Positions 1 through 41,000 are shown, counted from the stretch's first letter. The stretch: 64,000 nucleotides of DNA from Hydrogenivirga caldilitoris (GCF_003664005.1 NZ_RCCJ01000001.1:434001-498000); one strand, 5' to 3'. The notes: generated by a model not told the origin, from the letters alone. Numbers and translations are program-made.

Positions 1-425
1 ACCAAAAGCTCATCGGAGATTTTTCTCTCAACCTCCTCCTCTGTAAGGGAACGTGAGGCTCTCATGATGAGCTCTTCCACCGGGTAACGGACCGGTACAT
101 CGCTATCGTACTTTATAAACCCGGGCGTAAAGGAAAATATACCTTCTTTCTGCTCAAGCCTCGGTAAAAAGAAGCGCTCTATAGTTTTGTGGATATCTTC
201 CTTCTTTATACGTAGTCTGCTGATGAGCTGCTCAAAGTTCCTGTCCGTATATACCCTGAAAACCTTGTCAACTGGTCTTGCGAAGATGACCTCCCCGTCT
301 TTAACGTAGTATGCGACTATCATATCCTTCCATTCAACCAAAAGAACACCGCTCTTTTTATCCTTGGCAAGGACCTGAAGTATATCTGCAAAGCTGAAAG
401 TGGTTAAATCTCCTGTAAGCGCCAT
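1..425 (-). CDS. PATAN/DUF4388 domain protein (3' end beyond the window)
   Basis: The reading frame starts at the ATG at 425 and runs open off the window edge, so only about 141 N-terminal residues are visible. The first 50 residues have the PATAN (DUF4388) pattern: a helix ending ADILQVLAKDKKSG, then a strand pair ending YYVKDGEVIFA. In this family the domain is a protein-interaction module of gliding, twitching and response-regulator systems. The gene starts 3 nt after the roadblock gene stops, so the two are co-transcribed and probably act together. The missing C-terminal part prevents any call on further domains. The domain call is recognition from the sequence; the signalling role is inference. 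Confidence 0.75.
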   Translation of the reverse strand, partial: MALTGDLTTFSFADILQVLAKDKKSGVLLVEWKDMIVAYYVKDGEVIFARPVDKVFRVYTDRNFEQLISRLRIKKEDIHKTIERFFLPRLEQKEGIFSFTPGFIKYDSDVPVRYPVEELIMRASRSLTEEEVERKISDELL

Positions 426-428
426 CTA

Positions 429-785
429 TTAACCTATAGCCTCCTTAAGTTGAGTCTGAGCTTTCTTTATATCCATAAGCAGGAGACCCAGCTTGGCAGC
501 GTTGCTTGCAAGGACGGTAAGAACCGCGTCCTGTCCGATTCCGGTAAGCACGATGTAGCCCTCTTCCCCTTTTATGGTAATCTGCTCAAGGGTTCCCTTT
601 TGAAGTTCCTCAGTGACCTTTTCTCCCAGGGAGAGGATAGCTGCGCTCATAGCTGCAACTCTGTCCTCCTCTATGCCCGGCTTGAGTACCGCGGATATGG
701 GGAGACCATCGGCACTGACGAGAACGGCACCTTCCAAACCAGAACTTTTGATAAGTTCCTGCAAGACCTTCTCGTACTTGTCCAT
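429..785 (-). CDS. Roadblock/LC7 domain protein (MglB-like)
   Basis: This is a 118-residue single-domain protein of the roadblock/LC7 family. The pattern is typical: an N-terminal helix, GAVLVSADGLPIS, a central helix with AAMSAAILSLGEKV, and a strand pair around ILTG-type residues (EEGYIVLTGIGQDAVLTVL). Roadblock proteins dimerise and act as regulators or GTPase-activating partners of small Ras-like GTPases such as MglA. No GTPase lies next to it, but one with a second roadblock protein is encoded at 37585-38636. It lies between a coiled-coil membrane protein and a PATAN protein with 15 and 3 nt gaps. Family confidence is high; its partner is inferred. Confidence 0.85.
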   Translation of the reverse strand: MDKYEKVLQELIKSSGLEGAVLVSADGLPISAVLKPGIEEDRVAAMSAAILSLGEKVTEELQKGTLEQITIKGEEGYIVLTGIGQDAVLTVLASNAAKLGLLLMDIKKAQTQLKEAIG

Positions 786-35549: not shown

Positions 35550-35580
35550 TGATAATAATTCTCATTTGGGGTTTTGTCAA
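35550..35580 (-). promoter_or_regulatory. leuA promoter with overlapping Fur-like box
   Basis: On the minus strand a perfect TTGACA (35575-35580) and TATTAT (35552-35557) are 17 bp apart, and GGAGG follows before the leuA ATG. TGAGAATTATTATCA at 35550-35564 matches the 7-1-7 Fur consensus TGATAATnATTATCA at 13 of 14 fixed positions and covers the -10 box. The -35 overlaps the end of the upstream gene. Fur control of leuA is an inference; a Fur gene is partly in this window. Confidence 0.6.
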
Positions 35581-36470
35581 CCTATCATATCCATGACCTT
35601 CTTAAGGCTGACACGCATTCTCTCTATAGCCTTAGCAAGTTTACCTATCTCGTTCTCCGACTGGTAAGGGATCGGCTGTTCAATCTCCCCCTTGCTTATC
35701 TTCTCAGCCCTGTCTCTGAGGGCATCTATGGGCTTAAACACTCTGAAGTTAAGTATCAGCAGTATTATCCCCGACATGAGTATGAACACACCGCCCACAA
35801 GACCACCGTTTACGATACCATCAATTCTTGCCTGTTCCATAACCTTATCAAAGGGAACGTAGACGAGGACGGCACCATTTACCTGACCGACAGGCCAGTT
35901 AGGGTCTTCCTTGGGATTGTACAGATTTCTCACAGCAACAGGCATGTCCTCAACCTTGCCGTGGCACCGCAAACAGCCCTTTTTGGGTATGACAGAGAAG
36001 GCTTTTATAAAGTATTCCTTCCCACGATGGAGGGTTATCCCCTCAAACTCTTTCAGGTTCTTAGATTTCAGGTAGGCTATGATCCAGAGCTCGGTTTCGT
36101 TGGGTTTATCTTTCGGATTCAAAGGTTTTACGGCAACCTGTCTGAGCTGCATATCCGGAATCTCCTGGTTTACCCGTGTGAAGATGGAAGCTGTGAAAAA
36201 GGAGGAGGACTGAGCTTCAAGAATGAAGTCCTGGCTTGTACACCCGGCAGCAAGGAGTTCATCAACTTTAGGTCTCAAGGTTGAACGTACATAATCCCTT
36301 GAGGCTTTTACAAAGGCCATAGTGGTCTCTATTCTACTTCTTGCAGAGTCAATGGCTTTATTGATGGTTGACCTGTATATAAAGAAACCCACTCCCGTAC
36401 CTATGAGTATTCCCGTTATAACGATAACGAATGAAATCTCAGCCCTTATGCTTCTGAAAAACACCTTCAT
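35577..36470 (-). CDS. DUF3365 haem-type sensor with HAMP domain and no output domain
   Basis: This 297-residue membrane protein has helices near 12-31 and 219-241. The periplasmic part between them is DUF3365-like, with a single CxxCH haem c motif at Cys166, Cys169 and His170 (GCLRCHGKVED). A HAMP region (242-293: RVFKPIDALRDRAEKISKGE) is followed by the end SLKKVMDMIG. No kinase, cyclase or methyl-accepting domain is present, so output must pass through partners. Its start overlaps the PATAN gene by 4 nt. Redox or gas sensing is likely but unproven. Confidence 0.8.
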   Translation of the reverse strand: MKVFFRSIRAEISFVIVITGILIGTGVGFFIYRSTINKAIDSARSRIETTMAFVKASRDYVRSTLRPKVDELLAAGCTSQDFILEAQSSSFFTASIFTRVNQEIPDMQLRQVAVKPLNPKDKPNETELWIIAYLKSKNLKEFEGITLHRGKEYFIKAFSVIPKKGCLRCHGKVEDMPVAVRNLYNPKEDPNWPVGQVNGAVLVYVPFDKVMEQARIDGIVNGGLVGGVFILMSGIILLILNFRVFKPIDALRDRAEKISKGEIEQPIPYQSENEIGKLAKAIERMRVSLKKVMDMIG

Positions 36471-37600
36471 TCCCGGCTCCTCCTAACCCGCTTTAAAAAT
36501 GCGCTCCTATGATCATCATAGGGGATCTCTTCCGCCAACCTCTCTATGAACTCGTCAAGTTTACTGGCAGGGACACTCTCTTCGTCCCAGCCGAACTCAT
36601 CAAAGAGCTTTTTCCATACTATCTTCGCGACGGGACCCATCTCATCCAGGAGTGCTTCCTTTATCTCATTAAGTTTCTGCGGAGGGACTCTGTCTATTAC
36701 TTCCTCTGAGGCTTTGAGACTGAACCTGACAGGGCTCGGATTTGTATCCACGTATAGAGGGTAGAGGGTGAACCTTCCGGGAAAGTCCACATCCTCTTCG
36801 CTCACCTCATCTATGCTAAATAAACCCTGGAGCAGTCCCTTTACCTCTTTACCCCTGTAAAAGAACTGGTAATATCTCCTTGCTCTTCCTCCGTCAAGGT
36901 AAAGCAGCGCACTCATCCTCCTACCTTTTATATCGTCCCTTACCGCGTCCATTTCGGCTTTTTCCGTTATATCACCTTCTTTAATAACCTCCAGGCGCAC
37001 CATGGAAAGGAGCAGGGGTACAAAGTCTGGCTCCAGCAGGAACGTGCTTACAAAACCACCCCTTGAGTTTATCCTTATGTATTGAACGGCTTTCTCACCG
37101 CTCCTTTCCGGAGCGAAGATTCCAGCAGGGTCTCCATTGTAAAAGATAACCATACCTACAGGCTCTCGCTTTGTATGGAAAAGCATGTAGCCGTTAAAGT
37201 GGCTCTTCTTTGCGAGTGTCTTGAACTGGTCAATATCTATGTGAGATAAGGAGGATGTAGGGTGGAATTCATCTCCGTAACCTGCCAGACAGAGGGGTCC
37301 ATCCCTTTCAGGGTTAAAGTCGTTCCTCAAGCCGTGTACGATACTTACAGGGTCTGTTTCTATTATCTCTAACATACCTGTTTGGGGAAACCCGTAAGTG
37401 GTATAGTTGGTTTCCTCTATTCCCCTTTTGCTAACTATAAAGATTCTGTTAATTTCCCCATCGTAAAAGGGAATGTAATCCTCAGCGTCCCAGCTGGTTA
37501 TCTTCACGTATCCTGTAAACTTTCTGCGTCTTAAATCCTCTATAAGGGCTTCTGTATTAACAAGTTCCAGGTTTATCTTTTCTTTTACTTCTTGGCGCAT
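36467..37600 (-). CDS. PATAN-like double-domain protein A
   Basis: The 377-residue soluble protein has two PATAN-like units: RRKFTGYVKITSWDAEDYIP with GEINRIF, and KKSHFNGYMLFHTKREP with YNGDPAGIF. Its C-terminal 80 residues (ALLDEMGPVAKIVWKKLFDEF, split here as ALLDEMGPVAK and IVWKKLFDEF) match the end of the paralogue at 39813-41000. PATAN proteins usually link two-component or GTPase signals to motility machines. It overlaps mglA by 16 nt and the DUF3365 sensor by 4 nt, so the three are translated together. Confidence 0.7.
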   Translation of the reverse strand: MRQEVKEKINLELVNTEALIEDLRRRKFTGYVKITSWDAEDYIPFYDGEINRIFIVSKRGIEETNYTTYGFPQTGMLEIIETDPVSIVHGLRNDFNPERDGPLCLAGYGDEFHPTSSLSHIDIDQFKTLAKKSHFNGYMLFHTKREPVGMVIFYNGDPAGIFAPERSGEKAVQYIRINSRGGFVSTFLLEPDFVPLLLSMVRLEVIKEGDITEKAEMDAVRDDIKGRRMSALLYLDGGRARRYYQFFYRGKEVKGLLQGLFSIDEVSEEDVDFPGRFTLYPLYVDTNPSPVRFSLKASEEVIDRVPPQKLNEIKEALLDEMGPVAKIVWKKLFDEFGWDEESVPASKLDEFIERLAEEIPYDDHRSAFLKRVRRSRE

Positions 37601-38148
37601 GCTTTCTCTAATAAGATTTTTCTGACAATTGCCTGGAAGGTTTCCAAAACCCCCTTACCTTCCGTAGCTACAGCCTCTATATGCTCAGTCCCCCAAGGAT
37701 TACATACGGGCTCAAGCTCATCTACGGGGAGTGCATCAGGCACGTCCCTTTTGTTGTACTGAACCACAACGGGCAGAGAATATAGATCAAAGCCCTGCTC
37801 CTTAAGAACGGCGGCTGTCTCTCTGAGAACGAGAAAGTTTATATTCTCCCTCTCTTTGGAACTGTCTACGACGAAAACCAGTCCGTCCACGCCTTTCATT
37901 ATCACCTTTCTAAGAGGATGAAGTCTGAACTGCCCCGGTGTGGTAAGAACCTTGATGTCAATATTTTGACCCTCAAGATTTATGGAGCTTAGGAACATTT
38001 CAACGAAGAGTGTCCTGTTCTCGTCGGTCTCCATAGATATGTAATCACCCTTAGTTATGCCTTTGCTTTTAAGAAGGTCATACAGAACCTTAACGTTGGT
38101 ACTCTTGCCAGCCAGAGATGCCCCGAAGTAAACCACCTTTAACTTCAT
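37585..38148 (-). CDS. mglA: MglA-like Ras-type small GTPase
   Basis: A 187-residue GTPase of the bacterial MglA family. The P-loop is GASLAGKST at residues 9-17, the switch region has TTPGQFRLHP (Thr70-Pro-Gly-Gln73), VVDSS follows, and the guanine motif NKRD is at 132-135. MglA sets cell polarity and steers type IV pili or gliding; Gln73 aligns with the usual switch II glutamine position. It overlaps the roadblock gene by 4 nt and the PATAN protein by 16 nt. Confidence 0.9.
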   Translation of the reverse strand: MKLKVVYFGASLAGKSTNVKVLYDLLKSKGITKGDYISMETDENRTLFVEMFLSSINLEGQNIDIKVLTTPGQFRLHPLRKVIMKGVDGLVFVVDSSKERENINFLVLRETAAVLKEQGFDLYSLPVVVQYNKRDVPDALPVDELEPVCNPWGTEHIEAVATEGKGVLETFQAIVRKILLEKACAKK

Positions 38149-38636
38149 TTCGCCCCCAGTATCTTGTTGAGTTTGTCTTCAATTGCTTCAGGGGAGAGCT
38201 TCAGCAGCTTTGAAGGCTTCGGTTTTACCGAAGAGAATATCCTATTTAGCTCGTCTGCAAGCTCTTTTAAGAAGAGCCTGACGGTTCCCAAGGCAACGCT
38301 CTTTGGGCAAAGTACACCTACAAGAAACCTTTCACCTACAGCTTTAACCACAACATTCTGTTTCTTGCTCTCGTACTGAATGGCGTCAAGGAGGTCTTCC
38401 TTGGATACCATCTTTGCCATTTCAAAGGCGGCGCCGAATATACCGCTTATTATGCTTGCGAGAAATTCAGCCTGGGTTTCATCAAGGTTCTTTCCGTAAA
38501 AGGAGATGATACGTCCAGCGTCGTCCGAGAGGAGTACGAGGTCAGCTTCTGTCCTTGCCACAAAGTTTTTTAGGGCATTGATAAGCTTCCTCTCAACCTC
38601 CTCGTCTATCTCGTACTGGACTATGTCAAGTTCCAT
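38145..38636 (-). CDS. Roadblock/LC7 protein, likely MglB-type GTPase-activating partner
   Basis: The 163-residue protein contains a roadblock/LC7 domain: ADLVLLSDDAGRIISFYGKN, FLASIISGIFGAAFEMAKM, KQNVVVKAVGERFLVGVL, then a C-terminal helical tail (KLSPEAIEDKLNKILG). MglB roadblock proteins stimulate GTP hydrolysis by MglA. The adjacent mglA overlaps by 4 nt (ATGA), which fits a complex. The ATG at 38636 is preferred because AGGAGG is 5 nt upstream; the first Met of the open frame at 38666 has no such motif. Confidence 0.87.
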   Translation of the reverse strand: MELDIVQYEIDEEVERKLINALKNFVARTEADLVLLSDDAGRIISFYGKNLDETQAEFLASIISGIFGAAFEMAKMVSKEDLLDAIQYESKKQNVVVKAVGERFLVGVLCPKSVALGTVRLFLKELADELNRIFSSVKPKPSKLLKLSPEAIEDKLNKILGAK

Positions 38637-38684
38637 CCTATCCTCCTGGAATAAATGATAAACCAAAACCTTTCACCTTCAACC

Positions 38685-39800
38685 TCACTTAAGAAGGTCC
38701 ATAACCTTCTTTATACTGAGCCTCATTCTATCAAAGGCTTCGGCAAGTCTTCCGATTTCGTCCCTTGACTCTATTGGTATCTTCTGGTCAACGTCTCCCA
38801 TACTTATCCTCTCGGTATGCTCTATGAGAGTATTTATCGGGTCTTCAACGTATTTCTTGAATATCATGTAGCTTATAAAGAAACTGAATATGAGTCCGAC
38901 GAAGACGAACATAAGTATGTAAACACCTATCTGTTTGTAGGAGTCTATCACTGGTGTCAGGTCGTAGCCCATAAGCAGGAGTCCTACGTTTCTTCTTGAA
39001 AAGTCAAATATAGGCTTTGCCATAACCGCGTAGTTCTGAACCACAATAACCGTCTCCGGTTTGTCCTTTGCCTTGAGCATAAGCTCCCTAAGTATAGGGT
39101 TTGTCTCGTAATAAAGGAGGTAGGAACCGATCTTTTCTGCCTTTACAGCCCACTCGGCATGAGCTGCTGCCTTTTTGTCTATTAGGACTACAGTATCCAT
39201 ACCTACGAGTCCCTTGAGGTCATCAAGTATAGGGTTGAAGGGTGTTATGAGTTCCACAGCTCCCAGATACTCGTTCCCTTCCATTACAGGGTATGCACCT
39301 GTAACTATCGCCCTTCTCAATCCTATCTCTATCCCCTTCTGAGGAGCCCTCCTTTCGGCGACAGTGACTATTATCCTCCTGAACTTGGAAACGTCTATTC
39401 CAAATCTCTCCGGATTCCAGCTTCTGAAGAAGGAGATGGCGACAGGAGCCAGGAAGTGAAGTCTAAGGTCGTATATGCCCGTTAAGGTTTCAAGGTCTGT
39501 TCTCACCTTTACATACTTGTAAAGGAGGTCCCTGTTTTTGCTTTTAAAGGCTTTCTTCACGTCCGGGTCTTGGCTCACAAGGTAGGCAACCGAAAGACCT
39601 GCGTTCTCCCTCGTTTTAATTTGTTCAAGGAACAGTTTGTATCCGTTGTTTAAGGTCTCCTCAGCCTGCTTCCTTAACTGCTCTTGCAGGAGATAGTAAC
39701 TAACAGCAGCAACAGATGCTATGAGGACAACCAGTATTATTACGTTCGGGACAACGAACTTCTCTATAAGCGAAGCGTTCTTAAAGTATCTGCCTACCAT
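38685..39800 (-). CDS. Cache-type membrane sensor with HAMP domain and no output domain
   Basis: The 371-residue protein has an N-terminal helix (NVIILVVLIASVAAVSYYLL), an extracytoplasmic Cache-like sensor (PEVKK-type pattern and IGLRRAIVTGAYPVMEGNEY), a second helix near 295-318 (IGVYILMFVFVGLIFSFFIS), and a HAMP region ending RMRLSIKKVMDLLK. No kinase or methyl-accepting domain follows, exactly like the DUF3365 sensor at 35577, whose end is similar (RMRVSLKKVMDMIG). It lies between PATAN protein B and the roadblock gene, 12 and 48 nt away. Confidence 0.8.
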   Translation of the reverse strand: MVGRYFKNASLIEKFVVPNVIILVVLIASVAAVSYYLLQEQLRKQAEETLNNGYKLFLEQIKTRENAGLSVAYLVSQDPDVKKAFKSKNRDLLYKYVKVRTDLETLTGIYDLRLHFLAPVAISFFRSWNPERFGIDVSKFRRIIVTVAERRAPQKGIEIGLRRAIVTGAYPVMEGNEYLGAVELITPFNPILDDLKGLVGMDTVVLIDKKAAAHAEWAVKAEKIGSYLLYYETNPILRELMLKAKDKPETVIVVQNYAVMAKPIFDFSRRNVGLLLMGYDLTPVIDSYKQIGVYILMFVFVGLIFSFFISYMIFKKYVEDPINTLIEHTERISMGDVDQKIPIESRDEIGRLAEAFDRMRLSIKKVMDLLK

Positions 39801-39812
39801 TTACAACCTCCT

Positions 39813-41000
39813 CTAAATTATATCTGGCAGTATGCTTTCAACGCGCCTTAAAAATTCCCTGGCTGCCTCATCCTCTGGTATTTCCCTCTTAAGCTTATCA
39901 ACGACTATCTTTATATGGTTTATAGTCATTGAGCTCTCTTTAAAACCAAACTCGTTCAGCGTCTTTTCCCATATTAACTTCCCAAGAGGTCCTATCTCCT
40001 TTATAAAAGCTGATTTAACCTCCATGACCTTATCCAGAGGCACCTCACTGTCCGAGGTGACGACTTCCTCCTCAACACCCTCTATAACCACCTCAATAGG
40101 CTGAGGTTTTTCAATAAGAGATATATCATATACCCATATGGACCTGTCTGGCAGGTTTTCAACCTTGGTAGCTAACCTCCCCCTTTCAACTTCGTCGTTA
40201 ACAAAGAGACCCTTCTCTTTAACAAGCCTGTCTATATGTTGACCCCTGAAGAACATATCGTATCGGTGTATACCTTCACCCTCTATAACTATAACTGCAT
40301 TCCTCTTTTCCTCTGCGACAAACTTTTCCGCCTCTTCGTAAGTCCTGAAGTTTCTTTCTGTTTTCCTTACGTTGTCAGAGTGCATGGAATAAGCGAAACT
40401 TAACAACTCCGGTTCAAGGGTGTACATGGACATGAAGCTCTTTGCTGGAATGAGGTTTGCGTTTATGTAAGTTACCGCTCTGTCTCCGAAGGACCCGTCA
40501 CCTCCAAACACTGCCACCGGAAAACCCCCTTGGAATATCACGATGCCAAATAGCGTCTCCTCTGTGTAGAGGGCAACGTACCCATCTAAATGACTCCTCT
40601 GAGCGAGGAGAAACTCCTTGTTTATGTCAAGGAAGCTTATTGACACAGGCTCCTGTATGAGGAGACCGTAAGGAAAGAAAACCAAAGACCCATCTTGTTG
40701 TATGTTGTGTCTGTACTCAATTATGCCTACAAGGTCGTCTATGGTCGTTTCTACGAGGGATGCGGTGCCCTCCTTACTTTCTATAGCGAAGTTCTCAGCC
40801 TTGGAGAGGCTCCTGCTTCCATCCGCACCGAAGGTAACTACTTTGTAGGGTGCTCCCTTATTAAAGAGCAGATAATCGTCCTTGCTCCAGTATACTACCC
40901 TGAGGAACCCGGTTATCTCCTTTTTACGGACTTCTTCATAGACCTTGTTTATATTCATCACGTTTATGTCAAGGTCTTTGAATAGAACTCTCTTTACCAT
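39813..41000 (-). CDS. PATAN-like double-domain protein B
   Basis: The 395-residue protein is a paralogue of PATAN protein A. Unit one has KKEITGFLRVVYWSKDDYLL, unit two has RSHLDGYVALYTEETLFGIV followed by GGFPVAVFGG, and the C-terminus has AFIKEIGPLGKLIWEKTLNEF in the same place as in A. The GGGGAG motif directly touches the ATG at 41000, so the exact start is uncertain. It is the first gene of the MglA operon and is followed by a HAMP sensor, just as protein A is. No membrane segment is present. Confidence 0.7.
   Translation of the reverse strand: MVKRVLFKDLDINVMNINKVYEEVRKKEITGFLRVVYWSKDDYLLFNKGAPYKVVTFGADGSRSLSKAENFAIESKEGTASLVETTIDDLVGIIEYRHNIQQDGSLVFFPYGLLIQEPVSISFLDINKEFLLAQRSHLDGYVALYTEETLFGIVIFQGGFPVAVFGGDGSFGDRAVTYINANLIPAKSFMSMYTLEPELLSFAYSMHSDNVRKTERNFRTYEEAEKFVAEEKRNAVIVIEGEGIHRYDMFFRGQHIDRLVKEKGLFVNDEVERGRLATKVENLPDRSIWVYDISLIEKPQPIEVVIEGVEEEVVTSDSEVPLDKVMEVKSAFIKEIGPLGKLIWEKTLNEFGFKESSMTINHIKIVVDKLKREIPEDEAAREFLRRVESILPDII

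Follow-up and report, generated by a model that had tools for sequence, protein, structure and literature searches.

The Six-Gene Operon and Its Receptors

The stretch of DNA analyzed here (the window, 64,000 nt) comes from a complete Aquificaceae genome of 1.75 Mb, in which it spans positions 434001-498000. Between positions 35577 and 41000 it carries six co-directional ORFs on the minus strand that form a tight operon, named F, E, D, C, B, and A in the order of transcription (Table 1). F and E are separated by 12 nt, whereas D/C and B/A overlap by 4 nt each and C/B by 16 nt. The operon is flanked by nth/ahpC-like genes on one side and by leuA on the other; leuA has its own strong promoter-like site, as judged by consensus match only. 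A previous sequence-only reading of this DNA had described six genes here, namely two paralogous proteins with a common C-terminal block, two HAMP sensors without output domain, and an MglB-like roadblock protein and an MglA-like GTPase in between. Our analysis bore out this inventory: all six ORFs were found in place, closely packed on one strand, D and C matched MglB (6h5b) and MglA (3t12), respectively, F and B were related by hhalign and by alignment, and the receptors stop 0-2 (E) and 1-2 (A) residues past HAMP.

Table 1. Genes and features of the operon, with positions in the window.
Feature	Position	Strand	Basis
Gene F, 395 aa, three PATAN-like beta-alpha repeats + C-terminal STAC-like four-helix block	39813..41000	-	ORF, AlphaFold2, profiles
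STAC-like block of F, residues 318-395	39816..40049	-	alignment A3; profile vs PDB
Gene E, 371 aa, TM - dCache_3 periplasmic sensor - TM - HAMP	38685..39800	-	Pfam dCache_3 1.4e-23, HAMP 1.2e-12
HAMP + C-terminal tail (LAEAFDRMRLSIKKVMDLLK) of E	38688..38873	-	conservation across orthologues
Gene D, MglB-like roadblock, 163 aa from ATG	38145..38636	-	Robl_LC7 3.8e-8; MglB 6h5b 1.4e-10
Gene C, MglA GTPase, 187 aa	37585..38148	-	MglA 3t12 match 3.7e-37
Gene B, 377 aa, F paralogue, PATAN-like repeats + STAC-like C-terminus	36467..37600	-	F vs B profile 7.7e-71
STAC-like block of B, residues 299-377	36470..36706	-	AlphaFold2 model + Foldseek
Gene A, 297 aa, TM - Tll0287-like sensor (CxxCH) - TM - HAMP	35577..36470	-	Pfam Tll0287-like 4.2e-27, HAMP 7e-11
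CLRCH (CxxCH) heme motif of A, residues 166-170	35961..35975	-	translation
HAMP of A	35601..35744 (genome 469601-469744)	-	Pfam

C falls among the Ras/Arf-like GTPases in Pfam and is homologous to MglA 3t12 over residues 3-181; its P-loop (GASLAGKS), the arginine of RTLF (R45), and the glutamine of TTPGQ (Q73) align with those of MglA. By its profile matches D is an MglB homologue with a roadblock domain and a putative GAP role on C. Its start is most likely the ATG at 38636, which is preceded by AGGAGG; a longer alternative ORF begins with TTG and reaches 38666.

From their domains, E is predicted to be a ligand-type dCache receptor, and A is probably a c-type-heme redox or gas sensor. A hidden output domain is impossible in either protein, because the next start codons lie only 48 nt after E and 43 nt after A. 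The last 20 residues of E show a mean pairwise identity of 94% among 13 orthologues vs. 72% for the part before HAMP, and in three of four receptor classes the last 20 residues are among the most conserved stretches. The sensor type has been swapped, with the HAMP tail left nearly unchanged.

PATAN-Like Repeats in F and B

In the AlphaFold2 model of F (pLDDT 89.9), three beta-alpha-beta-beta-beta units in a row lead into four terminal helices. The repeats are mutually related in profile comparison (repeat 1 vs. 2, 1e-6; 1 vs. 3, 1.5e-4), hhalign values of this kind being pairwise and rough. The two proteins had been called PATAN proteins, and this held in an indirect form. Pfam assigned no domain to F or B, its PATAN model (PF14332/DUF4388) giving no match at E<1, and hhalign detected no significant match between F/B and the local DUF4388 proteins. 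The connection runs through an intermediate, the family of a 474-aa protein encoded elsewhere in the genome (L031), which matches F/B at 5.5e-7 and DUF4388 in Pfam at 6e-8. Via this family, F and B can be described as tandem PATAN-like repeat proteins. A fold search with whole F against PDB and viral models returned mainly sliding clamps (TM <0.2, about 18-22 Å rmsd), which we rejected as spurious. A search of plasmids found no relatives of B.

The gene for the 474-aa tandem DUF4388 protein follows a second MglA gene, with a two-TM protein ahead (L031:5919-9082, G000:C1 about 860.9-864.1 kb); neither a roadblock nor a HAMP gene adjoins this second MglA gene. Separately, a canonical roadblock - DUF4388 (PATAN) - distant MglA-family GTPase cluster occupies window positions 36-776 and continues upstream to G000:C1:433174 (L032:5175-6786). 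Of the 61 relatives searched, 58 have a member of the DUF4388 family of this cluster.

The C-Terminal Block Resembles the STAC Domain

F and B end in a block of about 78 residues. When the block profile was compared with all PDB sequences, Af1502 (5a1q) ranked first with E 0.004 over one 30-residue stretch, the next match being at 0.13. The AlphaFold2 model of the B block (pLDDT 86.1) has helices at residues 9-23, 26-38, 47-60, and 64-78. In a Foldseek search of this model against 350,542 chains, Af1502 (5a1q) took ranks 1 and 2 (prob 1.00, TM 0.64/0.72, 2.3 Å, E 0.08), and the next-best match had a prob of 0.16. The STAC domain of Af1502 type is a four-helix bundle made of two alpha-hairpins, and an LGPx(x)A motif links its helices 1 and 2 (PMC4834066). 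The corresponding junction of the block reads [IMV]GPx[GA], in which G is invariant and P is present in at least 90% (17 sequences); compared with the motif of Af1502, another residue stands in place of L, and G frequently takes the place of A. According to Korycinski et al. 2015 (PMC4834066), Af1502 is coupled to Af1503, a receptor that ends at HAMP. We refer to the block as STAC-like: its predicted fold and genomic coupling agree with STAC, and its motif and sequence homology are borderline. The pairing with HAMP (see below) was recognized before the Af1502 match, so that the two lines of evidence back each other.

Most STAC-Like Genes Adjoin Genes for HAMP-Ended Membrane Proteins

The block profile gave 103 matches in 82 of 136 genomes of the phylum. 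Neighborhoods were annotated with profiles for 101 block genes, 98 of them distinct (three loci were counted twice). Six loci (L147, L164, L170, L178, L190, L210) are interrupted, either by the end of the contig or by an insertion, and were left out, which leaves 92 distinct uninterrupted Aquificota loci. At 87 of these, the block gene directly adjoins a gene on the same strand whose product is a HAMP-ended membrane protein; no HAMP-ended neighbor was found at the other five intact loci (L091, L095, L115, L159, L204). The nearest gap at the paired loci is -19 to +40 nt, the partners extend 0-11 residues past HAMP and are of three receptor kinds, and whether they lie upstream or downstream varies with the lineage. 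These loci also served to build the HAMP and block profiles; the Pfam HAMP model agrees in the examples checked. At one of the cut loci (L210:2740-3330), a heme-type HAMP receptor gene is broken just past CxxCH and followed by transposase-like frames where the contig stops.

A gene for a Tll0287-HAMP or dCache-HAMP receptor follows the block gene in Aquificaceae and in f5, a family of the class that is more distantly related. In f3, which is another family of the order, a HAMP-only two-helix gene precedes the block gene, and roadblock, DUF4388, and MglA genes follow; this HAMP-only - STAC-like protein - roadblock - DUF4388 - MglA series forms a single operon at L085, L109-L113, and L116. The present genome has two further places in which paired HAMP-only genes precede a block gene. 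At L082:7718-9201 (G000:C1 about 47.7-49.2 kb), a gene for a 231-aa STAC-like protein comes directly after two HAMP-only genes for two-helix membrane proteins, and a dCache_3-GGDEF gene is found a few kb away. At L083:6611-8054 (G000:C1 about 1426.6-1428.1 kb), two HAMP-only genes accompany a gene for a 222-aa STAC-like protein, with a 4-nt convergent overlap with a PilB/GspE-type ATPase gene. No MglA gene is found near L082 or L083, and the block is thus not always locally tied to a GTPase. Roadblock-like N-termini were considered for the block proteins paired with HAMP-only genes and dropped: the likeness was by eye, and profile comparison was weak (best 0.009).

HAMP proteins away from block genes served as controls. 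The present genome has 12 HAMP matches, six of which are HAMP-ended, and all six are neighbors of the four block genes; the rest of those measured have long outputs, the weakest three matches being located in frames of 623-963 aa. The complete genomes of five relatives that lack the block encode 12 HAMP proteins, and all 11 that were measured retain 212-290 residues past HAMP. At L105 and L107, operons of roadblock, MglA, and PATAN-like genes lack both the block and a HAMP-ended neighbor. The mirror-tree correlation between block and HAMP distances was 0.74 overall and 0.26-0.74 within classes; it is not taken as proof, because shared descent accounts for it.

Receptor Modules Vary Around a Conserved GTPase

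Conservation of the six-gene order in relatives, proposed earlier as a check, was found for part of the operon. The D-C-B-A core also occurs in seven other Aquificaceae genera (g3, g4, g6, g7, g8, g9, g11), with B conserved in all seven, and only C and B are kept in g2. The recurrence of the same order in many genera places it far beyond chance. The F-E pair, which brings another sensor type (dCache_3) than the B-A pair, was found only in the present genus, where F forms one clade (100/99). Many members of this genus have F-E-D-C without B-A, and the full six-gene set was found in only three genomes (the present one, G002, and G010). We dropped the six-gene unit as the conserved form, F being a single clade confined to this genus. 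No receptor pair is indispensable, since several relatives lack B-A or F-E. Judging from these comparisons, the GTPase is strongly conserved, and the receptor modules around it have been acquired, dropped, and exchanged: F-E is genus-confined, B-A is often absent, and C is 67-92% identical across Aquificaceae whereas F is only 34-82% identical.

A Possible Kinase-Free Route From HAMP to MglA

The sequence-only reading had proposed signaling from sensor HAMP to PATAN to GTPase without a kinase. We retain this as the best reading, given the conserved core order, the pairing of HAMP-ended and block genes, and the lack of a local kinase gene, with one change: the element that reads HAMP is most likely the C-terminal four-helix block and not the PATAN part. 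With somewhat better than even confidence, we propose that HAMP-ended receptors signal via the STAC-like domain to PATAN-like proteins that control MglA/MglB, and that no kinase takes part. Two membrane receptors, E and A, would feed one MglA/MglB switch with no histidine kinase. The exit helices of the dimeric HAMP would be docked and read by the STAC-like block of the paired soluble protein, E specifically by F and A by B. The signal would then run inward, the tandem PATAN-like part of F or B altering the nucleotide state or the location of MglA (C). This part would most likely act with or on D, by GAP/GEF control or by membrane recruitment. The output would probably be polar or type IV pilus control. 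Type IV pili are plausible as the output, given that both PATAN and MglA proteins work on pili in other bacteria and that the genome encodes five PilB/PilT-family ATPases; no feature linking the operon to pili was found in the analysis.

Three other explanations were weighed. The HAMP-ended receptors and STAC-like proteins might merely tether the MglA/MglB/PATAN complex to the membrane or pole, no signal passing from HAMP to the GTPase. Localization is the classical role of MglA partners, and many partners of block genes encode HAMP-only two-helix proteins that lack a sensor domain and are possible anchors (L082, L083, L085). On the other hand, E and A bear two different intact periplasmic sensors, and the exchange of sensor type above a nearly identical HAMP tail suggests signaling; we regard a pure tether as unlikely. 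Alternatively, the receptors could act via the PATAN-like part directly on the pilus motor PilB, with MglA/MglB as a parallel branch. In cyanobacteria, type IV pili are a target of PATAN proteins (PMC7690835), and PATAN response regulators have been proposed to act on PilB there; in the present genome, one of the five PilB/PilT-family ATPase genes is convergent with the block gene at L083. However, in the D-C-B-A loci B shares its operon with MglA and roadblock genes and not with pilus genes, and the PATAN membership of F/B is indirect, which makes the PilB route rather improbable. Finally, that a separate soluble histidine kinase or a chemoreceptor array reads the HAMP-ended receptors, the neighboring GTPase genes being independent, seems very improbable: the genome has 14 matches to the kinase ATPase domain (HATPase_c) elsewhere, but none lies within about 57 kb of the operon or within 12 kb of the two other HAMP-ended clusters, and the constant neighbor of HAMP-ended genes is a STAC-like gene.

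Relation to Known Systems

The kinase-free route through a STAC-like domain has precedents for each of its halves. Like Af1503/Af1502 (PMC4834066), the operon combines a HAMP-ended receptor, an adjacent gene for a four-helix protein in which a GP motif joins helices 1 and 2, and translational coupling. The archaeal STAC is stand-alone and tied to transport genes, whereas the STAC-like domain forms the C-terminus of a PATAN-like protein here, and its operon includes MglA and roadblock genes. Actinobacterial conservons (AGPS, CvnA-D) also place a HAMP membrane sensor, an MglB-type roadblock protein, and an MglA-family GTPase in one operon, and their sensor is thought to act on the GTPase through regulators (PMC13343842, PMC4316618). 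Their sensor CvnA is a histidine kinase, and CvnC is a DUF protein; in the present operon there is no kinase domain, and PATAN-like/STAC-like proteins would be the link.

C and D are homologous to the MglA-MglB polarity module of Myxococcus xanthus and Thermus, and the catalytic Arg and Gln motifs align. In M. xanthus, MglA receives its input from Frz and the RomR response regulator; here, HAMP-ended receptors would take this place. The presence of PATAN genes near MglA/MglB was reportedly noted by Makarova in 2006. PATAN (DUF4388)-type genes have been found beside Group 1/5 mglA and mglB genes (PMC4316618), and the cluster at the window edge is a canonical example. F and B differ from such cases in having divergent tandem repeats below Pfam detection, joined to a receptor-paired STAC-like block. 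The sequence-only reading knew of no description of such signaling. The HAMP-receptor/STAC pairing and the MglA/PATAN neighborhoods are each known, and only their combination is new as far as we could find; the open-access literature yielded no paper mentioning the STAC domain and MglA together.

Whether these operons exemplify a general kinase-free bacterial pathway from receptors to small GTPases is a more tentative matter, and we put it slightly short of an even chance. In such a pathway, a STAC-like domain joined to PATAN-like or other modules would read, in trans, the HAMP state of HAMP-ended receptors and would thereby switch the Ras-like GTPase MglA, with receptors of differing input swapped onto one switch.

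To our knowledge, outside signals are known to reach MglA-type GTPases only through kinases and response regulators. Af1503, for its part, is a model structure for HAMP signaling and a receptor without effector. The operon joins the question of the output of Af1503 with that of the input to MglA, and would hint at a role for STAC domains. A HAMP-STAC-PATAN-MglA operon would also offer a soluble thermophilic system in which HAMP directly controls a Ras-like switch.
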